Below the pieces are notes generated by a model. The model had not been told where the DNA came from and searched no databases. It saw nothing but the letters and a program-made list of their open reading frames with translations. The position numbers and the translations under genes were made by a program. 64,000 nucleotides of DNA. It comes from Thalassovita mediterranea. GTDB lineage: Bacteria > Pseudomonadota > Alphaproteobacteria > Rhodobacterales > Rhodobacteraceae. Positions 24,707 through 39,658 of this stretch are shown piece after piece (the stretch's first letter is position 1; the number at the start of each line of letters is the position of its first letter). The stretch spans positions 124,001 to 188,000 of the forward strand of contig NZ_CYSF01000006.1 of the NCBI RefSeq assembly GCF_001458435.1, written 5' to 3'.

Positions 24707-25540
24707 TTAGAATGTTGGTCCCGTCACCGGCGTCAGCAACGACAGACGCAGCCCCAGAGACTGCACCGCATGTCGCAGGGCGTCGCAGACGCGGGCGACA
24801 TCGTTGTCTTGGGCGGATACCCCCAGCATTGGCACGGTAACTGCGGCAAGCACGCTACCACTGCTATTGGTACCGTCTGGCGCGCCCGTATCAATCCGAA
24901 CAGGTGCCGAAACTTCCATCACACCGCGCGCTTGCAGGCTGGGCTGAACGCTGATCTGTTGCTTGGCACATGTCTCGACCTCTGGATCGAAAGCGCCATA
25001 AGCGTCGGCATCTACAAACTCGCCCAGATCATGCAGCATTTGCAGTCGCTGGGCAGGGTCAGGCTGACCGGACAGGAAGCAAGCCCCTGCAGAGGACTGG
25101 AACAGCGCGCCCTCTTCACCTTCCTTCAGAGACAGGCTGTAAGGCGCGGCACTGCCTGTGGAGAGCGCAACGCGCATCTTGCCGTCGGCAATAACCCACA
25201 TGTGGTTGGAGTGTCCGGTTTCCTCGCTCAGCCGGGATAAAAACGGCTGGGCCACTTCGCGCAGACGCGCTTCGCTCCGCGGGGCGGTGAGGTTGGCGAT
25301 TTTCGGCGTTAAGCAGAACAGGTCCTCTGCCCCGCGCTCGATATAGCCGCGCTCTTCGAGCACGACCATCATACGGAAAATTTCGTTCTTGGACCGCCCC
25401 AACCCTTTGGCGATATCTGCATGGCTCAGCGGGGTTTGCGCCTGCAAGGCCAGCAGTTCAAGGATATCCAACCCCTTTTCCAGCGCAGGCGCTGCATACT
25501 TCTGCAATCGGGTTGGTTTATCGGTCACGTCACGAGCCAC
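24707..25540 (-). CDS. IclR-family transcriptional regulator
   Basis: A 277-residue repressor/activator. The winged HTH is at residues 20-80 (LEKGLDILELLAL, LSHADIAKGLGRSKNEIFRMM, LEERGYI), followed by the IclR effector domain. It lies 90 bp downstream of the second sugar ABC transporter on the same strand and is the last gene of that block, so it is the obvious candidate regulator of the sugar island (inference). Its ligand is probably a sugar acid or keto acid. The shared promoter region it would bind has apparently been lost (see 33293-34172). Confidence 0.9.
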   Translation of the reverse strand: MARDVTDKPTRLQKYAAPALEKGLDILELLALQAQTPLSHADIAKGLGRSKNEIFRMMVVLEERGYIERGAEDLFCLTPKIANLTAPRSEARLREVAQPFLSRLSEETGHSNHMWVIADGKMRVALSTGSAAPYSLSLKEGEEGALFQSSAGACFLSGQPDPAQRLQMLHDLGEFVDADAYGAFDPEVETCAKQQISVQPSLQARGVMEVSAPVRIDTGAPDGTNSSGSVLAAVTVPMLGVSAQDNDVARVCDALRHAVQSLGLRLSLLTPVTGPTF

Positions 25541-25630
25541 CGTGGTTAAGATATGTAAACTGCGCAGGAGACTTAGGCCCCTGCGCAGCCATTGTCGACC
25601 CCACCGGGAGGTCGCAGGGCCGAACCCTGA

Positions 25631-26590
25631 TTATTTCAGGCCGTTACGCTTCAAAATGTCGTCAGCGTTGTCAGCGGTCACCGCTTCGGTGCCCATCACA
25701 ACCGACTTCTCCACTTCGGCGCCGCCCAGATAGGCCAGTGCCTGACGCAGACCTTCGGCACCCGGGGTCGGGTAGAGGAAGGTTGCAGCCAACTCACCAT
25801 TGGCGACCCAGGTCACACCTTCGCCCGGCAGCGCGTCCACACCGATGAACATGATGTCATCCGCACGACCCGCATCCTTGGCCGCCAGGTAGGCGCCATA
25901 GGCCATCGGATCGTTGTGACCATAGACCATGGTGATGTCTTCGTAGTTGCGCAGGGCGGTGGACATGATGTCGTAGGCCTGATCCTGCTTCCAGTCGCCG
26001 GACTGCTGGTCCAAGAGGAAGCTCACGCCGGCCTCATTCTCAAACGCTTCGTGGAAGCCGTTGGCGCGGTCATGTGCCGCCTGCGTGCCAAGACCACCCC
26101 AGATTTCGACGATGGTGCCTTTGGCAGCGCCCATGCCACCCAGTTTTTCCAGCGCGAACTTACCTGCGGCGCGACCGATCAACTCGTTGTCACCACCAAC
26201 CCACTGAACGTATTTGTCGGTGTCAACGTTACGGTCCAGCACAAAGACGGGAATGCCCGCGTCCGTTGCCTGTTCAACCACACCGGTCAGACCAGCGGAT
26301 TCTTTCGGCGAAATCAGGATCGCGTCCACCTCTTGGCGGATGAAGTTTTCCACGTCCGCAACCTGCTTTTCGGTACGGTCGTTGGCGTCTGCCATCAGCA
26401 GCTCTACGTTTTCGTGCAGAGCAGCCTCAGCGCGCAGATCTTTATTGAACTGGACGCGCCAGGGTTCAACGGTGGTCACCTGCGAAAACCCGATCACGTA
26501 GTTCTTGTCTGCCGCCATCAGAGCGGATGCGCTGGTGGTCAGTGCCAGTGCCGCGACAAAAACACCCTTGCTGAAAGTACGTCGTTGCAT
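25631..26590 (-). CDS. CUT2 sugar ABC transporter, periplasmic binding protein (system 2)
   Basis: A 319-residue periplasmic binding protein of the ribose/galactofuranose (RbsB/YtfQ) type. The signal peptide (MQRRTFSKGVF, cleavage near ALMA-AD) is followed by the peripla_BP_4 fold (VIGFSQVTTVEPWR, VDAILISPKESAGL, VFVLDRNVDT, MVYGHNDPMAYGAY). The opening resembles YtfQ more than RbsB. Start at 26590 is preferred over 26608 because the signal peptide begins there. It is the last component of the second transporter; the order is ATPase, permease, binding protein. The sugar cannot be named from sequence, but L-fucose or a related aldose fits the neighbours. Confidence 0.88.
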   Translation of the reverse strand: MQRRTFSKGVFVAALALTTSASALMAADKNYVIGFSQVTTVEPWRVQFNKDLRAEAALHENVELLMADANDRTEKQVADVENFIRQEVDAILISPKESAGLTGVVEQATDAGIPVFVLDRNVDTDKYVQWVGGDNELIGRAAGKFALEKLGGMGAAKGTIVEIWGGLGTQAAHDRANGFHEAFENEAGVSFLLDQQSGDWKQDQAYDIMSTALRNYEDITMVYGHNDPMAYGAYLAAKDAGRADDIMFIGVDALPGEGVTWVANGELAATFLYPTPGAEGLRQALAYLGGAEVEKSVVMGTEAVTADNADDILKRNGLK

Positions 26591-26673
26591 ATTCTTCTCC
26601 CTTGTCATGGATCAGCCTGTTGGCTGAGTGGCAAAACCCTGATCTCCGGTCCTCCAAAACTGTGAGGTCAGGG

Positions 26674-27957
26674 TTATTTCTCTCCGCGCATTTTCCGTTT
26701 TGCGGCAGAGAGGAATTCTTCGATGCGGCCTTCTTGCAGCAGCACCGCGGCGATGATGATCACACCTTTGAGGATCAGCTGCGTGTTGCTGTCGATATTG
26801 TTGAGCTGCAGAATGTTGCTGAGGAAACCAAAGATCAGCACCCCGACAAATGTTCCCAGGATCGCGCCACGTCCGCCCATCAGGCTGGTGCCGCCGATAA
26901 CCACCGCTGCGATCGCGTCCAGTTCCAGACCCAGACCCGCATCCGGTTTACCCTGACGGAACTGCGCCACGTAAAGGATGCCGGCCAGCGCAGACAGACC
27001 GCCTGCAATCGCATAGGTGACGATGGTGTTGCGTTTGACGTTGATGCCCGCCAGACGCGCCGCCTCGGCATTGCCGCCAATGGCCAGCAGGTAGCTGCCA
27101 AAGGTGGTAAAGCGCGTCAGCACAAAGAACACCGCCAGCACCGCCAGAAAGAACAGACCGGGCACAGGCACCACGCCCCACAGCAGGCTGCGCAGAATGT
27201 CAAATTCCTGCACCGCGTTGCTGCCAGTGTAGACCGGATAGACCGCGGTATCCTGCCCCGCGATCACCCGCGCCAGACCCAGCGCACCCACCATCATCGC
27301 CAGTGTCACGATGAACGGCTGCAGGCGGCCATAGACGATCAGCGCACCGTTAAGGCTGCCCATCACAATGCCAACACAAGGCACAGCGATCAGTACGGCC
27401 ATCACGCCAAACTTGCCCTCAACCTGGCCCATCATCCAGACCATCACCGCCAGTGACAGCCCTGCCGCCACCAATGCAGCAGGCAGTTTGGAAACGCTGG
27501 GCTTTTCATCGCCTTTGGATTTGCGCATTTGCACCTGCACAAAGTAGATCAGCGCGATCACTGCAATGAACAGCACCACACCCGTGGCTGGGATGGAAAA
27601 GACGCTGGCCGCCGTCCAACCCGCCTGTGTCAGCAGCATCGCGCAGATCACAGTGCCCAGTGCCATCACAGATCCCACCGATAGGTCGATGCCTGCGATA
27701 AAGATCACCAGCGTCATGCCGACAGCCACGATCCCCGTAACAGAAACCTGTCGCAGAATGTCTGTCAGGTTGCCCAGCGACAGAAAGATATTGTTGCCCT
27801 TCGAGGACAGCGGTGAGGTCAGTGCGCCAAAGACAATCAGCGTCACAAGGCCCCAGTAAAGCTTGGTTTTTCCCAGTGCCTGCAGAAACACGCTGCGGGC
27901 GGAGCGGGCCTCGCTCGTCTGCGGCGCGGCGGTGGTCGATGTTCTGGCGTCAGTCAT
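26674..27957 (-). CDS. CUT2 sugar ABC transporter permease (system 2)
   Basis: A 427-residue permease of the BPD_transp_2 family (RbsC/XylH-like) with about ten or more helices. The family signatures GIDLSVGSVMALG and GGTSLMGGRGAILGT are visible. It is about 100 residues longer than the system-1 permease, with an inserted hydrophilic loop and extra helices at residues ~110-190, as in XylH-type permeases. Start at 27957 (MTDARTS) leaves a 12 bp gap to the ATPase stop. It is translated with the ATPase upstream and the binding protein downstream. Confidence 0.9.
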   Translation of the reverse strand: MTDARTSTTAAPQTSEARSARSVFLQALGKTKLYWGLVTLIVFGALTSPLSSKGNNIFLSLGNLTDILRQVSVTGIVAVGMTLVIFIAGIDLSVGSVMALGTVICAMLLTQAGWTAASVFSIPATGVVLFIAVIALIYFVQVQMRKSKGDEKPSVSKLPAALVAAGLSLAVMVWMMGQVEGKFGVMAVLIAVPCVGIVMGSLNGALIVYGRLQPFIVTLAMMVGALGLARVIAGQDTAVYPVYTGSNAVQEFDILRSLLWGVVPVPGLFFLAVLAVFFVLTRFTTFGSYLLAIGGNAEAARLAGINVKRNTIVTYAIAGGLSALAGILYVAQFRQGKPDAGLGLELDAIAAVVIGGTSLMGGRGAILGTFVGVLIFGFLSNILQLNNIDSNTQLILKGVIIIAAVLLQEGRIEEFLSAAKRKMRGEK

Positions 27958-27969
27958 GATCTGGCCCAC

Positions 27970-29529
27970 TTAGAGTTGTTCAAATTGCATAGAGAGGTCT
28001 TTGATCGCATCCAGCGACATCTCCTCTCGGTTCAAGGTGCCGGCGACGCGGCCTTCGCATAGGACGACCATCCGGTCGCACACCGCCAGAAATTCAGGAA
28101 TTTCCGAGCTGGCAAACAGCACCGACAGCCCCTGATCTGCCAGACGGCCAATCAGATCGTAGATCTCATCCTTGGCACCGATGTCGATGCCGCGGGTCGG
28201 CTCATCCAGCAGCAGCACGCTAGGTCCTGTAGCCAGCCATTTGCCCAGCACGACCTTTTGTTGATTGCCCCCACTCAGGCGGCCAACGGTGTGATCGACC
28301 CCTGTGGCTGCAACCCGCAGGCGTTCGATGACGCGCTGCGCCTCGTCGTCACGGGTTTGATTGGACAACACGCCGAAACGGGATTTGCGCGGTAACAGCG
28401 GCAGCACCACATTGTCCGCGATCGAGCGTTCCAGCAGCAGGCCGTTGCCTTTGCGATCCTCGGTGATCAGCGCCAGACCGTGATCCACCCCATCTGCGGG
28501 TGTGCGCAGATCAACCACCTGCCCTTCCAGCGTGATCTGGCCGGCATGACCGCCACCCCGGGCGCCGAAAATCGTTTCCAGCAGTTCGGTACGACCGGCC
28601 CCCAACAGACCGCCGATCCCCAGCACCTCACCCCGGCGCAGTTCGAACGAAACATCATCCAGAACCTTACGCCCCTGATGCTGTGCAGTCAGGCCTTCGA
28701 CCTTTAGCACAACGTCTGGTGCGGCTGGGACGGTGCGCTGCACGGGTTTGATTTCGACCGCGCGTCCCACCATCATCTGAACCAATTCGCCCGGCGTTGT
28801 TTCGCTGGCCAAGGTGGTGCCGATCAGGTCGCCATCGCGCAGAACCGTCACCCGATCCGAGATTTCGAAAACCTCATCCATACGGTGAGAGATATAGACG
28901 ATCGCTACACCCTGACGGGCCAGATCGCGTACCACCTCCATCAGGATATCCGCTTCGCTCTGCGACAGCGCAGAGGTGGGTTCATCCATGATCAGCAGTT
29001 TGGCATCCATAATCAGCGCGCGGGCGATTTCGACCAGCTGCTGTTCGCCAACGCGCAGATCGCGCACCAGGGTGTCTACATCCAGCGAAAATCCGAACTT
29101 GCGCAGCGCCTCACGGGCGGTTTCGCGCAGAGCTTTGTTGTCGACCCACAGGCCAGCAATCATCGGTTCCTGCCCCAACATCACGTTCTGCGCGACAGTC
29201 ATGTCGGGCATCAGGCTAAGTTCCTGATGCATAATCACGATGCCTGAGTCATTCGCCGCTGCGGGGGTGTCGAACTGTACCGCTTGGCCGTCGATTTCGA
29301 TGGTGCCTGTGCTGGGGGGCTGAACGCCACTGATGATCTTCACCAGGGTACTTTTGCCCGCGCCATTTTCACCCATCAGAGTGTGAATTTCGCCGCCCGA
29401 GATTTCTACGTCGACGCCGCGCAGTACATTCACACCAGAAAAGGATTTGCCAATCCCTGACAGCTGCATGGTAATTTTGCTATTCTGGGCACGATGATCT
29501 TCGCGCGCCAGGCTAGAAGCTGAAATCAT
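27970..29529 (-). CDS. CUT2 sugar ABC transporter ATPase, two-domain (system 2)
   Basis: A 519-residue protein with two fused ABC cassettes. The first has Walker [10 protein letters not shown] and Walker B LLIMDEPTSAL. The second has the degenerate P-loop GLLGAGRTEL normal for this family, signature LSGGNQQK and Walker [13 protein letters not shown]. It is the first gene of the second transporter, with a 142 bp upstream spacer carrying the terminator of the first system, so it may have its own promoter. About 25 non-conserved residues precede the cassette; a later Met (MQLSGIGKSF) is a possible true start. Confidence 0.93.
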   Translation of the reverse strand: MISASSLAREDHRAQNSKITMQLSGIGKSFSGVNVLRGVDVEISGGEIHTLMGENGAGKSTLVKIISGVQPPSTGTIEIDGQAVQFDTPAAANDSGIVIMHQELSLMPDMTVAQNVMLGQEPMIAGLWVDNKALRETAREALRKFGFSLDVDTLVRDLRVGEQQLVEIARALIMDAKLLIMDEPTSALSQSEADILMEVVRDLARQGVAIVYISHRMDEVFEISDRVTVLRDGDLIGTTLASETTPGELVQMMVGRAVEIKPVQRTVPAAPDVVLKVEGLTAQHQGRKVLDDVSFELRRGEVLGIGGLLGAGRTELLETIFGARGGGHAGQITLEGQVVDLRTPADGVDHGLALITEDRKGNGLLLERSIADNVVLPLLPRKSRFGVLSNQTRDDEAQRVIERLRVAATGVDHTVGRLSGGNQQKVVLGKWLATGPSVLLLDEPTRGIDIGAKDEIYDLIGRLADQGLSVLFASSEIPEFLAVCDRMVVLCEGRVAGTLNREEMSLDAIKDLSMQFEQL

Positions 29530-29623
29530 CTTCCCCCTCCCAAGGTCGATGTCATTTCATATATAAAACCACTTCATATTTAAAACGTCAACGATTCTAG
29601 CGTTAAAAAATAGGCATTTTAGA

Positions 29624-29670: not shown

Positions 29671-30618
29671 TTAGTCGTAGAGAACCGCAGCAACCTTCGG
29701 ATCGTCGATGTTGCTAGCGTCATAGTAGTAGAAACCAGTGTCGATCAGCGCTGGGACGGCCTCGCCCTTTTGCGCCATCACAGCCGCTTTCACGGTTTCA
29801 TAACCAATGCCGACAGGGTTCTGAGTGATCGCGCCCGCCATCAGACCGCTGCGGATCGCATCTTTTTGCGCTTTGCCGCTGTCATAACCAATGATGACCA
29901 GTCCTTCGGTGCCCAGTTCCTGCACACCGTTAACAACACCAATGGCAGAACCTTCGTTGGTGCCGAAAATACCATTCAGATCAGGGTTCGCAGTGAGGAT
30001 CGCTTTGGTCACCTCGGTGGATTTCAGGTGGTCACCCTGACCATACTGAACAGTCACAACTTCGATGCCGGGGTAGTTCGCCTCGATGCGGTTCACAAAA
30101 CCATCGCGGCGGTCGATGCCGGTGCGGCTGGTCTGGTCGTGCGCGACAACGGCAACTTTACCTTTGCCACCGATCAGCTCGGCCATTTTGTCAGCAGCCA
30201 TACCGGCAGCCAGTGCGTTATCGGTGGTGGCAGTGGCCAGTGGGATGTCGCTATCGACGCCGCTGTCAAACGCGATTACCGGAATGCCTTTTTCATTGGC
30301 CTGACGCAGCAGCGGAATTGCCGCCTGGCTATCCAGCGCAGCGAAACCGATGGCGGCCGGGTTGTTCGCCAGAGCGGCGGCCAACATGTCGATTTGACGG
30401 TCAACCATGGTTTCGTTGTCCGGACCTTCAAAGGTGATGCGCACACCAAATTCGTCAGCTGCCTGTTCGGCGCCGGATTTAACCGCCTGCCAGAACTGGT
30501 GCTGGAAACCTTTGGACACCAGCGGGATGTAAAGCTCGTCTGCGGCGGTAGCGACCGATGCAGGAACAGACAGGGCGGCGGCGCTCAGGGCCCCCAGAAT
30601 GAAACGACGTGTAAACAT
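29671..30618 (-). CDS. CUT2 sugar ABC transporter, periplasmic binding protein (system 1)
   Basis: A 315-residue periplasmic binding protein with a Tat-like signal (MFTRRFILGAL, cleavage near ATA-AD) and a peripla_BP_4 fold (LVSKGFQHQFWQAVKSG, IGFAALDSQAAIPLL, VIAFDSGVDSDIP). It is not closely similar to the system-2 protein, so the two transporters are not a recent tandem duplication. It is the last gene of system 1 and is followed by a terminator. It likely binds a pentose or deoxyhexose. Confidence 0.9.
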   Translation of the reverse strand: MFTRRFILGALSAAALSVPASVATAADELYIPLVSKGFQHQFWQAVKSGAEQAADEFGVRITFEGPDNETMVDRQIDMLAAALANNPAAIGFAALDSQAAIPLLRQANEKGIPVIAFDSGVDSDIPLATATTDNALAAGMAADKMAELIGGKGKVAVVAHDQTSRTGIDRRDGFVNRIEANYPGIEVVTVQYGQGDHLKSTEVTKAILTANPDLNGIFGTNEGSAIGVVNGVQELGTEGLVIIGYDSGKAQKDAIRSGLMAGAITQNPVGIGYETVKAAVMAQKGEAVPALIDTGFYYYDASNIDDPKVAAVLYD

Positions 30619-30716: not shown

Positions 30717-31724
30717 TCAGCCCGACTTCTTGCGGCGGACCATATCGGCGTAAACCGCAAGGATGATGATCGCGCCGGTCACGACGGTCTGCCATTCCTG
30801 TGCAACCGACAGAACCCGCAGGCCATTGGTCAACACAGCCATGATCAGCGCGCCGATGATGGTGCCAAGGATGGTGCCGCGACCGCCCGACAGCGAGGTG
30901 CCGCCAATCACAACCGCAGCAATCGCTTCCAGTTCATAGCCCAGACCCAGTGCAGGCTGTGCCGAGTTCAAACGCGAGGCGATCAGGATGCCACCGATGC
31001 CACAGATGCCGCCGGCCAGTGCATAGATACGCATTTTCCACACATCGGTGTTCACACCGGACAGGCGCACGGCTTCTTCGTTCGAACCCAGTGCAAAGGT
31101 GTAGCGGCCCAGCACGGTACGGCTCAGGATATAGGCGGCGGCGATAGCCACGATGAACAGGATCAGCACGCCATTGGGGATCGGCAGCGACGGGATCACC
31201 TTGCCAATCAGCGACCCACGCGAGATTTGGTCAAAGCCCGGCGTGTCGTTGAAATAGATCGGACGGGTACCCGAAATCACCAGCGACAGACCTTTCAGGA
31301 TCAACATCATACCAAGGGTAGCGATGAACGGCGGGATCTTCATCTTGGCCACAAAAGTGCCAGATACCAGACCGCAGAGTGCGCCCGCGCCAATCGCTGC
31401 GGCAACACCCAGCAAGAGGGGCATGCCCATGTAGGTCAGAACCACACCGGCGATCACCGCACAGAAGGTCATCAGCGTTCCGACCGACAGATCGATACCG
31501 CCGGTGATGATAACCAATGTTGCCGCAACGGCCAGAACGCCGTTTACCGATGTCGCCTGCAAGATGGCGATCATGTTCGAGGTTTGCATAAAGTTCGGCG
31601 ATGCGATGGAGAAACCAATCAGCAGCGCAATCAAGCTGGCGAAGGCCAATAGCTTTTGATAGGCGCCGGAGGACCCCATATTGGCCAGCGGCGATTTTTC
31701 GTTCACGTCTGTTACTGAGGTCAT
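30717..31724 (-). CDS. CUT2 sugar ABC transporter permease (system 1)
   Basis: A 335-residue BPD_transp_2 permease with about ten helices. Signatures [14 protein letters not shown] and [15 protein letters not shown] are present. The start at 31724 overlaps the ATPase stop as ATGA, so the two genes are translationally coupled; longer in-frame starts inside the ATPase gene are not supported. Compact RbsC-like size. Confidence 0.93.
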
Positions 31725-33244
31725 TGAACCGTCTCCACTACGCGCATGGCTGCCTCTCGTTGGGTTGCCAGCTGCATGATGTCTTCTTGGGTGGTGTCTT
31801 TGCCGCCGGGCAGAATGCCCGTCAGCCTGCCTTCGCACATGACCGCGATGCGGTGGCTCAGGCGCATGATTTCCGGCAGCTCCGAGGAAATGACGATGAT
31901 CGTCTTGCCCTCGGCTGCCAGCTCTTCGAGCAATTTGTAGATCTCGGATTTTGCACCGATGTCGATCCCGCGGGTCGGCTCGTCAAAGATCAGGATATCG
32001 CAATCGCGCAGCAGCCATTTTGCGATGACCACCTTTTGCTGATTACCCCCTGACAACAGGCGCACTTCCTGCGTATCCGACGGCGTGCGGATGCCCAGAC
32101 GGCGGATAAACTCCTGCGTCGTCGAGGCCATCGCCGCTTCGTCCAGCTGTCCGCCCTTGGAAAACAGATCCAACGAAGACAAAGCGATATTGTCACGCAC
32201 GTTCATTCCGGTTGCGAGGCCAAAATGCTTGCGGTCCTCGGACAGATATCCAATGCCCGCCTTCACCGCATCGCTGGGGGTGCGAATGTTGACGCTTTGG
32301 CCATGCACTTCGATCACGCCGCCATCGCGCGCGTCCGCCCCGAAGATTGCGCGCGCCACTTCGGTGCGCCCTGCCCCCATAAGACCTGCAAATCCCAATA
32401 TCTCACCGCGCTGCACCGAGAAGCTGACATTTTGAATGTCGCGCCCGCGATTTAGCCCCGTCACCTTGAGCGACACTTCGGCGTCACCCAGATCGGGCAC
32501 TTCCAGCGGCTCTTCGTTGACTTCGCGCCCCACCATCATGGCAATGATCTGGCTGATCGGGGTTTCTGCCGCGCCAACGGTTCCGACATATTCGCCATCG
32601 CGCATTACAGTCACACGATCCGCGATCTGCTTGAGTTCGTCCATTTTGTGGCTGATGTAGACAATGCCGACACCTTCGGCCTTCAAGCCACGGATAATGA
32701 CAAACAGTTCGGCGATTTCGGCATCATTCAATGCCGCGGTCGGTTCGTCCATGATCAGAACCTTGGACCGGAAAGACAGAGCTTTGGCGATCTCAACCAT
32801 TTGCTGTTTGGCAATTGTCAGGCTGCCCACAGGCACGGTCGGATCCATATCCAGATTCATGGATTCAAAAATCTCGGCCGTTTGAGCGTTCAGCGCCGCT
32901 TCGTCCAGACGGCCGAAGCTTTTGCGCGGCTCACGCCCAATAAAGATGTTCTGCGCGGCGGTCAGATCATTCATCAGACTAAGCTCCTGATGGATGATGC
33001 CAATACCCAGATCCTGCGCCTCACCGGGGGTGGTCGGGCTGACCGATTGGCCATTGATCACCAGATCGCCGCCATCGCGTTGATAGATCCCCGAAAGGAT
33101 TTTCATCAGCGTGGACTTGCCCGCACCATTTTCCCCCATGAGAGCATGCACCTCGCCCGGTGCAATATCGAACTGTACGTTTTTCAGCGCGTGAACGCCG
33201 GGGAAATATTTTTCAATTCCCGTCATTTCGACTAGCTTTGACAT
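31721..33244 (-). CDS. CUT2 sugar ABC transporter ATPase, two-domain (system 1)
   Basis: A 507-residue protein with fused ABC cassettes: Walker [10 protein letters not shown] near residue 38 and Walker [12 protein letters not shown] in the first, and degenerate P-loop [10 protein letters not shown], signature LSGGNQQK and [12 protein letters not shown] in the second. The strong ribosome site GGGAGGGG precedes the ATG at 33244. It starts 48 bp after the stop of the uxaA remnant, which suggests that the original operon began with uxaA and that the operon promoter lay upstream of uxaA, in DNA that is now missing. Confidence 0.95.
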
Positions 33245-33292: not shown

Positions 33293-33448
33293 TTACATCA
33301 CCGCGCCGATCTGCCAGGGGACAAACTCCACCCCGCCAAATCCCAGCTCTTCGCTTTTGGTTTGCTCGCCAGAGGCCACTCGGATGATCAGCTCCAGCAA
33401 TTCCTCGCCTTTTTCCTCGATGCTGACGCCCTCGCTGACGATGTCGCA
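33293..33448 (-). pseudogene. 3' remnant of a UxaA-family (altronate/fuconate-type) dehydratase
   Basis: Reading the minus strand from about 33448 to the TAA at 33295-33293 gives a C-terminus of about 50 residues: DIVSEGVSIEEKGEELLELI, then IRVASGEQTKSEELGFG, ending EFVPWQIGAVM. This is the conserved end of UxaA-type sugar-acid dehydratases (ASGExTKSE and EFVPWQxG), normally about 400-500 aa. All of the N-terminal and most of the catalytic domain is absent. The homology stops where that of the plus-strand aldose dehydrogenase begins. I infer that it encoded the L-fuconate/D-arabinonate dehydratase of this pathway. Confidence 0.75.
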
Positions 33449-34172
33449 GAAACGCATCGTTTTTGACTACACCTATGACGGTGTCATGCGATCATATGAG
33501 GCCAGCCTGAAACGGCTGGGCGTAGATAATGTTGATGTGCTGTTGGTGCATGACGTCTGTGTTTTCAGCCAAGGCAGTCAGGAAGCATCCGACGCCAAGG
33601 TGCGCGAACTGTTCGACGGCGGCGGTTACCGTGCGCTGACGGATCTGCGCGACAGCGGTGACATTGCCGCAATTGGCGCAGGCGTCAATGAATGGCAGGT
33701 CTGTGAAAAACTGCTGGGACTGGGCGATTTTGACGGTTTCCTGCTGGCGGGCCGTTATACCCTGCTGGAGCAAGAGGCGCTAGATAGCTTCCTGCCGCTG
33801 TGTGAAAAACGGGATGTCGGCATCATTCTGGGCGGGCCTTACAATTCCGGCATTCTGGCAACCGGCGCGATTGAGGGCGCGAAATACAACTACGCTGATG
33901 CGCCGCCTGAAATCATGGACCGCGTGCGCCAGATCGAAGCGGTCTGCGCCGCCCATGACACCCCGCTGATCGCTGCCGCACTACAGTTTGTGCTGGGGCA
34001 TCCTTGCGTCAAAACCGTTGTGCCCGGCGCTGTTTCGGCCAAAGAGGTAGAAGCAAACGCCGCGCTTATGGATCGGCAGATCCCCGCAGGTCTGTGGAGC
34101 GATCTGCGCAGCGAAGGATTGATCCGCCCCGATGCCCCCCTGCCTGGGGAGGACACAAACGATGCTGCGTAA
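33441..34172 (+). pseudogene. Aldo/keto reductase (aldose 1-dehydrogenase type) lacking its N-terminal third
   Basis: The first plausible Met is at 33441, without a ribosome site; homology begins at IVFDYTYDGVMRSYEASLKR. The remaining ~240 residues match the L-fucose/D-threo-aldose 1-dehydrogenase group (LLVHD, FLLAGRYTLLEQEALDSFLP, GGPYNSG). Family members are about 320-340 aa. The missing part carries the cofactor-site Asp, Tyr and Lys of the catalytic tetrad; only the His in LLVHD remains, so activity is not expected. The frame stays open upstream to 33357 only by reading antisense through the uxaA remnant. It overlaps fucU by 11 nt. Confidence 0.75.
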
Positions 34173-34602
34173 TATCGATCCCGTCCTGTCGCCAGAATTG
34201 CTGAAGATCCTGCGTGCCATGGGGCACGGGGATGAAATTGTCATCGCTGATGCGAATTTCCCCGCAGAAAGCACCGCCCGCGCCTCCGGCGCGGCCTGTG
34301 TGCGGGCGGATGGGTCTGATGCCAGTGAAATGCTGCGCGCGATCCTATCAGTGCTGCCGCTGGACAATTTCGTGCCGGATCCGGCGTTGAGCATGCAGGT
34401 GGTTGGCAACCCTGATGAGGTGCCCGCGGCAGTCGCTGATTATCAAACCATCATCAATGACGTGGCCGATCATCCCGCCCAGATCCAGAGCTTGGAACGC
34501 TTTGCCTTCTACGACCGTGCGGCGCAGGCCTATGCGGTGGTGCAAACAGGTGAACGGCGCCTTTACGGCAATATCATCCTGAAAAAAGGGGTGATCGGAT
34601 GA
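34162..34602 (+). CDS. fucU: RbsD/FucU-family sugar mutarotase
   Basis: A 146-residue protein of the RbsD/FucU fold, which interconverts anomers of L-fucose or ribose. LSPELLKILRAMGHGDEIVIADANFP contains the family's GHGDxIxIxDxNFP motif; the late FYDRAAQAYAVVQTGERRLYGNIILKKG matches the C-terminal active-site strand. Start at 34162 has GGGGAGG at 34146-34152. It overlaps the aldose dehydrogenase remnant upstream and, by ATGA, the lactonase downstream. Confidence 0.92.
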   Translation: MLRNIDPVLSPELLKILRAMGHGDEIVIADANFPAESTARASGAACVRADGSDASEMLRAILSVLPLDNFVPDPALSMQVVGNPDEVPAAVADYQTIINDVADHPAQIQSLERFAFYDRAAQAYAVVQTGERRLYGNIILKKGVIG

Positions 34603-35429
34603 GAATCGACGCACACCAACACTTCTGGGCGGTTGAACGGGGTGACTATGGCTGGCTGACGCCAGAACTGGCGCCGATTTACCGCGATTTCCTACCCGAA
34701 GATCTGGCCCCGATTTTGGAACGCCACGGTATCACTGGCACCGTTCTGGTACAGGCAGCTCCTACGGTTGCCGAAACCGAATTTATGCTGTCACTGGCGG
34801 CCAAATCGGCCTTCATCAAAGGTGTCGTCGGTTGGGTCGATTTCGAAAGCGACACGGCGGTGGACATGATCGCATCGCTGGCACAATCGGGCAAACTGGT
34901 CGGCATCCGCCCGATGATTCAGGATATCGAAGACACCGATTGGATGCTGCAGGATCGCTTCACGCCCGTGTTCGAAGCAATCATCGAAAACGATCTGGTC
35001 TTTGACGCCTTGACCCTGCCCCGCCATCTGCCCGCCCTGCGCAAACTTCTGGATCGTCACCCAGAGATGCGGGTGGTGATTGATCACGGGTCCAAGCCGT
35101 TGATCGCCGACGGCATCATGGCTGGCTGGGCCGAAGACATGGCCGCCCTCGCGGCGCGCGAAAACACCTGCTGCAAACTGTCAGGTCTGGTGACCGAAGC
35201 GGGCGAAGACTGGTCCGCAGTAGATCTGAAACCCTATGTTGATCACCTGCTGAACACCTTTGGGCCCGCACGCCTGATCTGGGGCAGCGACTGGCCGGTT
35301 TGCACACTGGCAGCCACTTACGACCACTGGGTCGCCACAACACAAGGGCTACTGGCCCATCTCACACAACAGGAAAGAGACGCGATCTGGGGGCTCAACG
35401 CCCAGCGTGTCTATAAACTCGGGGAGTAA
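34599..35429 (+). CDS. Amidohydrolase-family lactonase (L-fuconolactonase-like)
   Basis: A 276-residue TIM-barrel hydrolase of the COG3618 group. The metal-binding HxH motif is in MRIDAHQHFWAVERGDYGW, with VVIDHGSKP in the middle and GSDWPVC near the end. It would open the sugar lactone formed by the aldose dehydrogenase. The start overlaps the fucU stop (ATGA), showing translational coupling. The exact lactone is inferred from neighbours (FucU, SDR, FAH hydrolase). Confidence 0.88.
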   Translation: MRIDAHQHFWAVERGDYGWLTPELAPIYRDFLPEDLAPILERHGITGTVLVQAAPTVAETEFMLSLAAKSAFIKGVVGWVDFESDTAVDMIASLAQSGKLVGIRPMIQDIEDTDWMLQDRFTPVFEAIIENDLVFDALTLPRHLPALRKLLDRHPEMRVVIDHGSKPLIADGIMAGWAEDMAALAARENTCCKLSGLVTEAGEDWSAVDLKPYVDHLLNTFGPARLIWGSDWPVCTLAATYDHWVATTQGLLAHLTQQERDAIWGLNAQRVYKLGE

Positions 35430-35433
35430 TCCG

Positions 35434-36540
35434 ATGGAGCTGACCACTCTTGACCAAACCGGCCTTTGGCTGGGCCGTATCGAACGGCCCGGCGTTGGCC
35501 CCTGTGTCGTCACCCTGCGCGATGGCGTGCTGACGGACATCACCAGCAAAACCGCACCGACCGTGCGTGACATTATGGAACGCGCAGATACGGCGAACTA
35601 TGTGGCACAGGCCACTGGCTCTGCCGTTGAAGGGGATGATTTCACATGGCTCGCCCCCTGCGACCTCCAATCGGTCAAGGCCTGTGGCGTGACCTTTGCC
35701 GGGTCGATGGTGGAACGTGTGATCGAAGAACAGGCCGCAGGTGATCCCGCCAAGGCCGACGCCATCCGCGCCCGTATCGGTGCGCGCATCGGTGACAGCC
35801 TGTCCAACATCACCCCCGGTTCTGCCGAGGCGGAGGAAGTGAAACAGGCCCTGATCGAAGAAGGCCTGTGGTCGCAGTATCTGGAAGTGGGCATTGGCCC
35901 CGATGCCGAGGTATTTTCCAAGGCGCAGGTGCTGTCCTCGGTCGGTGCCGGGGCCGAGATTGGCCTGCACCCGATTTCCACTTGGAACAACCCAGAACCC
36001 GAAGTGGTGCTGGCCGTGACCTCCAAGGGAGAGATCAAAGGCGCGACACTGGGCAACGACGTGAACCTGCGTGACGTCGAAGGACGCTCTGCCCTGCTGC
36101 TGAGCAAGGCAAAGGACAACAACGCCTCCTGCGCCATCGGTCCGATGATCCGTCTGTTTGACGCGCATTTCACCCTTGATGACGTGCGCGCCGCAGAGGT
36201 GTCGCTGACCGTGACGGGCGAGGATGGGTTCACCCTCGAAGGACATTCCTCCATGTCGCAGATCAGCCGCGATCCTGCCGATTTGGTGCGTCAGACCATC
36301 GGCCGCCATCACCAGTATCCCGACGGGTTGATGCTGTTCCTCGGCACGCTGTTCGCGCCGACGCAGGACCGCGACACCAAAGGGGGTGGCTTCACCCACA
36401 AGCTGGGGGATGTGGTCACCATCGCAAACCCCAAAATGGGCAGCCTGACCAACACGGTCCGCCTGTCAACGGAATGCCCTGAGTGGACCTTCGGGGCCTC
36501 TCATCTCATGCGTAATCTGGCCCAACGCGGCCTTCTTTAA
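35434..36540 (+). CDS. FAH-fold 2-keto-3-deoxy-sugar-acid dehydratase (XylX-like)
   Basis: A 368-residue protein of the fumarylacetoacetate-hydrolase superfamily. It is longer than the usual 280 aa and resembles Caulobacter XylX, which dehydrates 2-keto-3-deoxy-pentonate to alpha-ketoglutarate semialdehyde. The metal-site region NNPEPEVVLAV, DVNLRDVEGRSALLLSKAKDNN and the late GGGFTHKLGDVV are visible. GGGGAG at 35421-35426 is the ribosome site for 35434. The next gene is a ketoglutarate-semialdehyde dehydrogenase type, which supports the role. Substrate stereochemistry is inferred from the fucose-type neighbours and would be D-arabinose-derived. Confidence 0.8.
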   Translation: MELTTLDQTGLWLGRIERPGVGPCVVTLRDGVLTDITSKTAPTVRDIMERADTANYVAQATGSAVEGDDFTWLAPCDLQSVKACGVTFAGSMVERVIEEQAAGDPAKADAIRARIGARIGDSLSNITPGSAEAEEVKQALIEEGLWSQYLEVGIGPDAEVFSKAQVLSSVGAGAEIGLHPISTWNNPEPEVVLAVTSKGEIKGATLGNDVNLRDVEGRSALLLSKAKDNNASCAIGPMIRLFDAHFTLDDVRAAEVSLTVTGEDGFTLEGHSSMSQISRDPADLVRQTIGRHHQYPDGLMLFLGTLFAPTQDRDTKGGGFTHKLGDVVTIANPKMGSLTNTVRLSTECPEWTFGASHLMRNLAQRGLL

Positions 36541-36552
36541 GGAATACACACC

Positions 36553-38055
36553 ATGATTACCGGAAAACACCTGATCGCTGGCGAATGGGTCAGCGGCGAC
36601 GCCACCTTTGCTTCTGAAACCGCCCATGGCCCCAGCCGTGACTATAGCGTTGGCACCCCGCAGCATGTGGATGCCGCCGTCGAAGCTGCCGAAGAGGCCT
36701 TTTTGACCTTTGGCTGGTCCTCGCGTCAGAACCGCGCCACCCTGCTGCGTCGCATCGCGGATGAGATCGACGCCCGTGGCGAACAGATCACCGAGATCGG
36801 CACCCAGGAAACCGGCCTGCCCGCCGCCCGCCTTGAAGGTGAGCGTGGCCGCACCACCGGCCAGCTGCGCCTGTTTGCGGATCACATCGAAAAGGGCGAC
36901 TATCTGGACCGCCGCTATGATGAGGCCCTGCCCGATCGCGCGCCCCTGCCCCGCCCCGAACTGCGCATGATCCAGCGCCCGCTGGGTCCAGTGGCTGTGT
37001 TCGGCGCCTCCAACTTCCCGCTGGCCTTTTCCACCGCAGGCGGTGACACCGCCGCAGCACTGGCAGCAGGCTGTCCGGTTGTGGTCAAAGGCCACTCCGC
37101 CCACCCGGGCACCGGTGAAATCGTGGCACAGGCCATTGATGCCGCGATCAAGGCGCTGGATGTGCACCCCGGTGTCTTCTCTATGGTGCAGGGTGGTAAA
37201 CGTGATGTGGGCACCCGTCTGGTGCAGCACCCACTGATCCGCGCCGTTGGTTTCACCGGCTCGCTGGGCGGTGGTCGTGCGCTGTTTGATCTGTGTGCGC
37301 AGCGCGATGAGCCGATCCCCTTCTTTGGTGAACTGGGCTCTGTGAACCCGATGTTCCTGCTGCCGAACGCCGCCGCCAACCGTGCCGAGGCTCTGGGCAC
37401 CGGCTGGGCCGCATCGCTGTCGATGGGCGCAGGCCAGTTCTGCACCAACCCCGGCATCGCCGTGGTGCTGGATGGCGACGACGCCGCAACCTTCCAAGCG
37501 TCCGCTTTGGCGGCACTGGGCGAAGTTGCGAACCAAACCATGCTGACCCCCGGCATTGCCGATGCCTACCGCAGCGGCACCCAGCGCATTGAGAACAGCA
37601 CTGGCGTTGATATGCTGATGGGCACCGCCTGCCCGAACCGCGAAGCTGCACCGTACCTTTTTGCCGTGTCCGCTGACGACTGGCTGGCCGATGCCCACCT
37701 GCAAGAAGAGGTCTTTGGCCCCTTGGGCATCATTGTGCGCGCCAAGGATTTTGCCCAGATGCAGGACATCGCCCGCAAGATCGAAGGTCAGCTGACTTGC
37801 ACCCTGCACTATGACGCAGAGGACAAGGCAGACGCTGCAGCACTGCTGCCGCTACTGGAGCGCAAGGCTGGTCGCCTGTTGGCGAACGGGTTCCCCACCG
37901 GGGTTGAGGTCAGCGATACCATGGTTCACGGTGGTCCCTACCCCGCCTCGACCAACTTCGGCGCGACCTCGGTCGGCACTTTGTCGATCCGTCGTTTCCT
38001 GCGTCCGGTCTGCTACCAGAACATCGCAGCCGACCTCCTGCCCGAAGAGGTATAA
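36553..38055 (+). CDS. Alpha-ketoglutarate semialdehyde dehydrogenase-type ALDH (NADP)
   Basis: A 500-residue aldehyde dehydrogenase. The catalytic Cys is in MGAGQFCTNPG, the general-base Glu in FFGELGSVNP, and the nucleotide-loop region is FGASNFPLAFSTAGGDTAAALAAGCP. The GQFCTNPG form is typical of the NADP-dependent KGSA dehydrogenases that end the Weimberg/Dahms-like pentose route. It comes 12 bp after the XylX-like gene and is followed by an SDR one base after the stop, so it is clearly in the same operon. Confidence 0.88.
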   Translation: MITGKHLIAGEWVSGDATFASETAHGPSRDYSVGTPQHVDAAVEAAEEAFLTFGWSSRQNRATLLRRIADEIDARGEQITEIGTQETGLPAARLEGERGRTTGQLRLFADHIEKGDYLDRRYDEALPDRAPLPRPELRMIQRPLGPVAVFGASNFPLAFSTAGGDTAAALAAGCPVVVKGHSAHPGTGEIVAQAIDAAIKALDVHPGVFSMVQGGKRDVGTRLVQHPLIRAVGFTGSLGGGRALFDLCAQRDEPIPFFGELGSVNPMFLLPNAAANRAEALGTGWAASLSMGAGQFCTNPGIAVVLDGDDAATFQASALAALGEVANQTMLTPGIADAYRSGTQRIENSTGVDMLMGTACPNREAAPYLFAVSADDWLADAHLQEEVFGPLGIIVRAKDFAQMQDIARKIEGQLTCTLHYDAEDKADAAALLPLLERKAGRLLANGFPTGVEVSDTMVHGGPYPASTNFGATSVGTLSIRRFLRPVCYQNIAADLLPEEV

Positions 38056-38056
38056 A

Positions 38057-38797
38057 ATGTCGGGGCGGTTAACAGACAAAATCGCCCTAATCACCGCGGC
38101 GGGCCAAGGAATTGGCCTCGCCACGGTGGAACTATTCATCGCTGAAGGCGCGCAGGTGATCGCCTGTGACATCGACGATGAATCATTGGCGAAACTGGCC
38201 GGTATTGACGGTGTCACTCCGCTGAAGCTGGACGTGACAGATGCAAACGCCGTGGCCCGCGCCACCGCAGAATTGCCGCCGCTGGATATTCTGTTCAACT
38301 GTGCAGGTTATGTCGCTGGCGGCACGATCTTGGACTGTGCCGAGGACGACTGGGACTTCAGTTTCGATCTGAACGTCAAGGCAATGTACCGCCTGATCAA
38401 ACTGACCCTACCAGCGATGTTGGCGAACGGCGGCGGCTCCATAATCAATATGTCATCGGTCGCCTCATCGATGAAGGGCGTTCCGAACAGGTTTGCCTAC
38501 TGCGCATCCAAAGGCGCCGTAATCGGCTTGACCAAATCGGTGGCAGCGGATTTTGTCGCACAGGGCATCCGCTGCAATGCGATCTGCCCCGGCACCGTAG
38601 ATAGTCCCAGCTTGCACGACCGTTTGCGCGCCACCGGCAACTATGAGCAGGCGATGGCAGATTTTATCGCCCGTCAGCCCATGGGCCGCATTGGCAGCGC
38701 GGATGAAATTGCCGAACTTGCCCTCTATCTGGCGAGCGACGCCAGCAAATATACCTCCGGCCAGCCCTTCGCCATTGATGGCGGCTGGACGATCTGA
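38057..38797 (+). CDS. SDR oxidoreductase (2-keto-3-deoxy-L-fuconate 4-dehydrogenase-like)
   Basis: A 246-residue short-chain dehydrogenase. The cofactor loop TAAGQGIG, NCAGYV, the catalytic Ser in NMSSVASS, and YCASK are all intact, as is the C-terminal SGQPFAIDGGW. In the L-fucose/L-rhamnose non-phosphorylative route an SDR oxidises the keto-deoxy acid at C4, and the following FAH protein cleaves the diketo acid. That pairing is present here. It starts one base after the ALDH stop codon. Confidence 0.9.
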   Translation: MSGRLTDKIALITAAGQGIGLATVELFIAEGAQVIACDIDDESLAKLAGIDGVTPLKLDVTDANAVARATAELPPLDILFNCAGYVAGGTILDCAEDDWDFSFDLNVKAMYRLIKLTLPAMLANGGGSIINMSSVASSMKGVPNRFAYCASKGAVIGLTKSVAADFVAQGIRCNAICPGTVDSPSLHDRLRATGNYEQAMADFIARQPMGRIGSADEIAELALYLASDASKYTSGQPFAIDGGWTI

Positions 38798-38815: not shown

Positions 38816-39658
38816 ATGAAACTGCTGCGTTATGGCGCCCCCGGTGCGGAAAAGCCCGCATTGTTGGATCAGGACGGTGTGATCCGTGATCTGTCTGGCG
38901 TAATCAGCGATGTTGCGGGCGCGGCCCTGTCGGATGAAACGCTCACCAAATTACGCGCGCTCGACACAGCCAGCCTGCCTGCCGTGGCTGACGATCCCCG
39001 CATCGGCCCCTGTGTGGGTCAGGTGGGCAAGTTTATCTGCATTGGCCTCAACTACGCCGACCATGCCGCCGAGGCAGGTATGGAACTGCCCGCCGAGCCT
39101 GTCGTCTTTTTCAAAGCGACCTCCGCCATCTGCGGCCCCAACGATGACGTGGAAATCCCGCGCACCTCGGTGAAAACCGACTGGGAAGTTGAACTGGGCG
39201 TGGTGATTGGCAAGCACGCCAAATACGTCACCAAGGAAGAGGCGCTGGATCACGTTGCAGGCTACTGTGTGGTCAACGACCTGTCCGAGCGTGACTTCCA
39301 GCTGCACCGCGCAGGCCAGTGGGTGAAAGGCAAATCCGCCGACACCTTCGGCCCCATCGGTCCGTGGCTGGTTACCCGTGATGAAGTGGCAGATCCGCAG
39401 AACCTGAGCATGTATCTGGATGTCAACGGTCACCGCTATCAGGACGGCAGCACCAAAACCATGCACTTTGACGTGGCCACCGTGATTTCGCACCTTAGCC
39501 AGTTCATGTCGCTGCACCCCGGTGACGTGATCACCACCGGCACCCCTCCGGGTGTGGGCATGGGCCAGAAGCCGGAAACCTACCTGAAGGCCGGTGACAA
39601 GATGGAACTGGGCATCGAGGGTCTGGGCGTGCAAACCCAAAATGTGATCGCAGGTTAA
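38816..39658 (+). CDS. FAH-family 2,4-diketo-3-deoxy-sugar-acid hydrolase
   Basis: A 280-residue member of the fumarylacetoacetate-hydrolase family. FICIGLNYADHAAEAGMELP, the metal ligands in DWEVELGVVIG, NDLSERDFQ and GDVITTGTPPGVGMG are the hydrolase/decarboxylase signature. With the upstream SDR it would split 2,4-diketo-3-deoxy-L-fuconate into pyruvate and lactate (family knowledge). It is the last gene of the sugar operon. No clear terminator was identified in the ~65 bp that follow. Confidence 0.9.
   Translation: MKLLRYGAPGAEKPALLDQDGVIRDLSGVISDVAGAALSDETLTKLRALDTASLPAVADDPRIGPCVGQVGKFICIGLNYADHAAEAGMELPAEPVVFFKATSAICGPNDDVEIPRTSVKTDWEVELGVVIGKHAKYVTKEEALDHVAGYCVVNDLSERDFQLHRAGQWVKGKSADTFGPIGPWLVTRDEVADPQNLSMYLDVNGHRYQDGSTKTMHFDVATVISHLSQFMSLHPGDVITTGTPPGVGMGQKPETYLKAGDKMELGIEGLGVQTQNVIAG

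Follow-up and report, generated by a model that had tools for sequence, protein, structure and literature searches.

The genes at the locus

The window analysed here is a stretch of 64,000 nucleotides of the marine bacterium Thalassovita mediterranea, whose genome (G000) is 3.43 Mb in 19 contigs and is rated 100% complete. Two operons point away from each other in it, and where they meet the innermost gene of each side is cut. The features around this point are as follows.

29671-30618, minus strand: ABC substrate-binding protein, intact (named by reading)
30717-31724, minus strand: ABC permease, intact (named by reading)
31721-33244, minus strand: ATPase of a sugar ABC transporter, the first gene left intact in the minus-strand operon
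33293-33448, minus strand, within the ORF 33293-33457: remnant of a UxaA/GarD-type sugar-acid dehydratase (translation, Pfam, alignment to the intact gene of G007)
33436-33448, no strand: deletion junction (1-12 bases shared between the alignments to relatives on either side)
about 33446-34172, plus strand: remnant of an aldo/keto reductase (AKR), by context of the L-fucose/D-arabinose 1-dehydrogenase type (Pfam, translation, G007 alignment)
34162-34602, plus strand: FucU-type L-fucose mutarotase, intact (NCBIfam NF011949, 129.5 bits, cut-off 141)
34599-35429, plus strand: amidohydrolase, L-fucono-1,5-lactonase-like, intact (Pfam Amidohydro_2; NCBIfam NF052480, 226 bits, cut-off 400)
35434-36540, plus strand: FAA-hydrolase-family protein, intact, a possible 2-keto-3-deoxy-acid dehydratase of route II (Pfam FAA_hydrolase; putative role)
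36553-38055, plus strand: aldehyde dehydrogenase, intact, a possible alpha-ketoglutaric semialdehyde dehydrogenase (NCBIfam, none above cut-off; putative role)
38057-38797, plus strand: SDR, intact, likely a 2-keto-3-deoxy-L-fuconate 4-dehydrogenase of FucF type (Pfam and NCBIfam; role by context)
38816-39658, plus strand: FAA hydrolase, intact, 2,4-diketo-3-deoxy acid hydrolase of FucG/LRA6 type (NCBIfam NF053535, 429 bits, cut-off 500)

What is left of the two innermost genes? The first-pass annotation had read 33293-33448 as only the last ~50 residues of a UxaA-type dehydratase, and translation, Pfam and alignment all agree with it. The remnant corresponds to residues 478-527, i.e. the last 50, of the 527-residue intact protein of Thalassobius sp. 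Cn5-15 (G007), and it matches the Pfam profile GD_AH_C at positions 196-241 of 242 only (the last 46). The SAF, the second and the C-terminal domains are all present in the UxaA of the relative, and the remnant lacks this three-domain composition by which UxaA/GarD members are recognised. The 54-codon ORF that contains it starts at a chance ATG inside AKR-derived DNA. On the plus strand, the AKR had been described as starting at about 33456 without its N-terminal third and three of four catalytic residues, which Pfam and the G007 alignment likewise bear out. The remnant begins at about residue 111-114 of 350 (G007 numbering), with the first ~110 residues gone, and covers positions 80-281 of 291 of the Pfam AKR profile (from 33456), while the intact relative covers 2-287. 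In the same numbering D57, Y62 and K88 are absent and H145 is retained; these four residues we take to be the AKR catalytic tetrad. Neither the complete barrel nor the full Asp-Tyr-Lys-His set of the aldo/keto reductase superfamily is found in it. Its frame is open over 238 codons without stops, and upstream the open frame continues across antisense uxaA as far as a TTG at 33357.

As a whole, the cluster fits a non-phosphorylating pathway for L-fucose or D-arabinose. The NCBIfam scores of these window genes all stay below the model cut-offs, so exact substrates are given as putative. Compared with route 3 of L-fucose breakdown, the non-phosphorylating one (FucM, A, B, C, F, G; PMC11199699), the window keeps the mutarotase, lactonase-like, SDR and hydrolase genes clustered, but, unlike in that route, the deletion has truncated its genes for the 1-dehydrogenase and the dehydratase. 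A second comparison is cluster 4 of P. mimosarum, where, according to PMC6336799, a D-arabinonate dehydratase stands beside a COG0667 aldo/keto reductase that is active on D-arabinose, L-fucose and L-galactose. This dehydratase type, also found in H. huttiense, is placed by those authors in the UxaA/GarD superfamily, and the H. huttiense enzyme strongly prefers D-arabinonate (PMC6336799). The P. mimosarum D-arabinose cluster and that of T. mediterranea share the same two enzyme families, while in T. mediterranea both genes are broken and the substrate is a predicted one; the lost dehydratase may have preferred D-arabinonate.

The order of the remaining genes varies among relatives. The FAA-hydrolase/aldehyde dehydrogenase pair (35434-38055) is present in the loci of Thalassovita autumnalis CECT 5118 (G003) and of G002 and absent from that of G007, where the lactonase-like gene adjoins the SDR directly. 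The G014 locus has a match to the diketo-acid hydrolase beyond the transporter genes on the other strand (L038 15127-15783), and the G025 locus (L037) has no DNA match to the SDR or the hydrolase. Judged from these alignments, the remainder of the cluster is arranged differently in G014 and G025.

Extent and reality of the deletion

The locus was compared in six relatives, G007, G003, G002, G037, G025 and G014. Both flanks of the scar align collinearly in all six, with 2514-2624 bp more between them (G007 2545, G003 2558, G002 2558, G037 2552, G025 2624 and G014 2514 bp), and this pattern is the ground for reading the scar as a deletion. In the nearest relative, G007, the 2545 bp that T. mediterranea is missing span the remainder of uxaA, one whole 237-codon gene and the first part of akr. 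The alignments from left and right overlap by 1-12 bases at the junction, within 33436-33447, in agreement with the earlier statement that the truncated ends meet within ~10 bp. The proposal of a single deletion in a divergent locus, with both gene starts and the stretch between them lost, is also borne out, both by aligning the remnants to full-length homologues and by comparing the junction with relatives that keep the complete pair. Its size had been put at ~1.5-2 kb, which is too small.

Is the complete arrangement the usual one? Loci were collected by AKR similarity and compared for the best 80 of the 340 that encode a relative. The order uxaA (leftward), gntR (rightward), akr (rightward) was found in 61 of the 80. 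Among the other 19, 12 had neither partner (E 1e-15), 5 the regulator only and 2 the dehydratase only; in 5 of these 19 the AKR lies at most 2.6 kb from the start of the locus. In a separate search of 394 genomes of the family, drawn evenly, 20 matches scored above that of T. mediterranea, all of them full length (from residue 9 or earlier to residue 343 or later), with one stop inside the match in G355 and in G300. T. mediterranea alone among the 21 best matches lacks the AKR start, so that a check for relatives sharing the short form gave 0 of 20. Lower among the matches listed, three are short, in G170, G030 and G149. The first two start at bases 5 and 2 of their respective contigs, and the third covers residues 79-342 at 55% identity; cut AKR genes may thus exist outside T. 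mediterranea too. At the DNA level, some match to a 1.3-kb junction query was found in 40 of 61 genomes (T. mediterranea included), many of the matches being short. In an AKR tree of 18 sequences, T. mediterranea pairs with G007 (support 93/94, not starred).

Could the scar be a fault of the assembly, the strain itself being intact and 2.5 kb having been dropped by the assembler or through a mixed culture? The data for T. mediterranea are the assembly sequence, with one genome per species, and the genome is a draft of 19 contigs. Against this, the junction sits inside a 730-kb contig, and the lost portions of AKR and UxaA turn up on none of the other contigs, the genome being rated complete. 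The breakpoint regions in the six relatives (150 bases each side) have only words of 7-13 bases in common, much shorter than the words that assemblers usually work with, so there is no long repeat to cause a false join. We therefore regard an artefact as very improbable. With a lesion of a single culture or an assembly fault weighed as alternatives, the deletion looks real, by argument and not by proof. Among the papers listed on Thalassobius and fucose, on the dehydratase and its pathway, or on L-fuconate dehydratase and Rhodobacteraceae, we noticed none on the scar.

On the reading as a deletion, one event would have removed the first ~477 codons of uxaA, the intergenic stretch, a complete GntR/FCD gene and the first ~110 codons of the AKR. 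The scar would have formed by joining at a few shared bases, and both remnants are probably non-functional as enzymes. Elsewhere in the genome, neither a second UxaA nor an intact AKR of the same kind was found. The pair has intact collinear counterparts in the relatives and no intact copy at home, as in a pseudogene pair made by deletion, and UxaA or AKR paralogues were rejected as a backup.

The lost regulator, a probable loss of promoters, and the age of the loss

The 237-codon middle gene of G007 is a GntR/FCD regulator by Pfam, and the whole gene is absent at the scar. A gene of this type is also present in the G003 and G037 loci. In T. mediterranea, no protein matches the GntR query at more than 33% identity. 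The first-pass annotation had supposed that an IclR operator was lost. This is unsupported, because the regulator at the deleted place is of GntR type and, across the eight further genomes of the genus, the best match to the IclR protein of the window reaches no more than 30% identity. With a GntR/FCD gene standing in the deleted stretch of G007, G003 and G037, IclR was rejected as the regulator of this locus.

A second sugar ABC transporter and the IclR gene lie at 24707-29529, directly beyond the fucose-type transporter. Collinearity of the window with G007, G003 and G002 stops at about 29544-29623. Of the block 24707-29529, no more than 38% is covered by any of the plasmid matches listed.

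A shared promoter had also been claimed as lost. The part of the claim that stands is that the stretch between the divergent genes, as seen in the relatives, is gone, including the region upstream of uxaA in the minus-strand operon. In G007, 55 bases separate the starts of the longest uxaA and gntR open frames; in L063 and L082, the aligned parts of the two genes start 135-136 bases from each other. From this arrangement we infer that both flanking operons, which point away from the scar, lost their own promoters. A replacement promoter at the scar was rejected: in a simple scan, 1 kb at the scar has one sigma-70-like match (plus strand, 33817) vs 0.6 expected by chance, so the matches are not beyond chance.

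When were the genes lost? Substitutions were counted on codons where G003 and G002 agree. For the AKR remnant there are 2 amino-acid vs 30 silent changes on the T. mediterranea side, and 3 vs 33 on the G007 side. The expectation without selection is 2.26-2.97 amino-acid-changing per silent change, and thus 30 silent changes would accompany about 68-89 amino-acid changes. As a rough estimate, the AKR would have been free of selection for at most about a tenth of the T. mediterranea branch. A remnant without stops or an excess of amino-acid changes suggests that the loss is recent.

The same numbers might be read in another way, namely that the short forms, a UxaA tail peptide and a truncated AKR, are working, domesticated products. 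The AKR remnant is indeed open over its whole length and not relaxed. However, the low change ratio is equally explained by a recent deletion, three of the four catalytic residues have been lost along with the beginning of the barrel, and none of the 20 other best matches has the short form. We give this explanation almost no weight, and a recent deletion remains the preferred reading.

No other gene tested differs significantly between the T. mediterranea and G007 branches; for the amidohydrolase, there are 10 amino-acid and 24 silent changes vs 4 and 28 (p 0.13). For the first hydrolase gene just 29 codons were available to the test, and there were none for the aldehyde dehydrogenase, which has no match in the G007 locus. 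With no significant relaxation among the genes that were kept, the cluster may still be in use.

A second sugar-acid cluster and what the loss means

There is a further question, how a cluster without two of its enzymes and its regulator could still be of use? One answer may lie elsewhere in the genome, in a second cluster with the following position and content.

contig C6, 564613-571475 (L177:6614-13476): IclR, SDR, hydrolase, enolase-type L-fuconate dehydratase and TRAP genes

The SDR and hydrolase are 73% and 81% identical to the counterparts in the window. The TRAP transporter is recognised by NCBIfam for the solute-binding protein and by eye for the large permease. The enolase-type dehydratase is similar over its full length to solved L-fuconate dehydratases, with 560 bits and 2.6e-167 against 2hxt (residues 3-422 of 429) and 834 bits against 4ip4, and L-fuconate dehydratase is its predicted activity; the NCBIfam scores of this protein all stay below cut-off. 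In PMC11199699, 2hxt/1yey is the X. campestris enolase-type L-fuconate dehydratase, and PMC6336799 names that enzyme among those also using D-arabinonate. T. mediterranea has further dehydratases: two of the IlvD/EDD family, and three enolase-superfamily genes, at C9:46904 (cis-3-hydroxy-L-proline dehydratase model, 321 bits, cut-off 500), at C5:119849 (just 26% identity to the fuconate dehydratase) and, as the fourth of that superfamily, at C2:167120 (29.7 bits).

Where did the second cluster come from? Among nine genomes of the genus, T. mediterranea alone has the enolase-type dehydratase, the other eight having no match above 33% identity, and the protein is 82.7% identical to that of Ruegeria sp. 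TM1040. In a tree of SDR and hydrolase, which left out G037 as its locus gave no hydrolase, the second-cluster genes fall with their TM1040 counterparts (97/99), apart from the pair of the window. Enolase-type and UxaA-type clusters as a whole are not separated in this tree. Some 1.2 kb past the TRAP genes there is a phage-type integrase gene (L177:14635-15867), in a region of 49-51% G+C vs 54-61% on its left. No tRNA was found beside the cluster in 18 kb. The likeness to TM1040, the absence in the genus and the nearby integrase make acquisition from outside likely, though not proved.

Plasmids offer a comparison for the gene content. An AKR gene lies at most 10 kb from this dehydratase in 4 of 6 plasmid regions (Ruegeria sp. 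TM1040, Parasedimentitalea, Pseudosulfitobacter and Shinella), while those of Paracoccus yeei and Roseibium aggregatum have none within 10 kb. Near the second cluster of T. mediterranea, no AKR was seen by eye among ORFs of at least 220 aa in 18 kb. On the plasmid of Shinella sp. PSBB067 (L189), the enolase-type dehydratase, an AKR and a UxaA-type dehydratase stand side by side with IclR and GntR regulators, both dehydratase types within about 5 kb, and therefore a backup alone does not explain the loss.

The first-pass annotation held that two of the six pathway steps were disabled. For the dehydratase step this goes too far, since the enolase-type enzyme, together with its SDR and hydrolase, would provide an unrelated substitute; for the 1-dehydrogenase step it may hold, there being no AKR of its kind left. 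The one other AKR in the genome (C6:358234-359208) is unmatched by the G007 AKR at E 0.001; by eye it presumably is a Tas-type reductase. The sugar-oxidising step would then be left without its only enzyme of AKR type, while the half of the pathway from the acid to pyruvate would stay encoded through the second-cluster dehydratase, SDR and hydrolase.

Is the pathway then fully disabled? The loss of both enzymes together with the regulator, and the want of a first-step AKR, speak for it. On the other hand, an intact enolase-type L-fuconate dehydratase, an SDR and a hydrolase are encoded elsewhere, the window retains the mutarotase and lactonase-like genes, and the absence concerns aldose dehydrogenases of AKR type, beside which SDR and Gfo/Idh types exist. 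Full loss of the pathway seems to us rather unlikely. A more speculative scenario, which we think quite unlikely, is that the lineage switched from sugar user to sugar-acid user: the gain of the cluster with acid uptake of TRAP type and the non-homologous L-fuconate dehydratase would have freed the old one, the AKR, the old dehydratase and the regulator would then have been lost in one step, and the organism would depend on L-fuconate from its neighbours.

The reading we favour, and consider highly probable, is a recent and simple deletion of ~2.55 kb in the T. mediterranea lineage, in which the start of uxaA, the intergenic stretch, gntR and the start of akr were lost, and which is probably tolerated because the second cluster has a non-homologous L-fuconate dehydratase, an SDR and a hydrolase. 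The event is an ordinary gene loss in kind. As an example from a catabolic cluster it is clean and recent, and the genome concerned also encodes a non-homologous substitute for one of the two enzymes that were lost. It illustrates that a broken operon read alone can overstate the loss of function. The prediction is that T. mediterranea would retain the use of L-fuconate, while its use of L-fucose would be weakened or lost.
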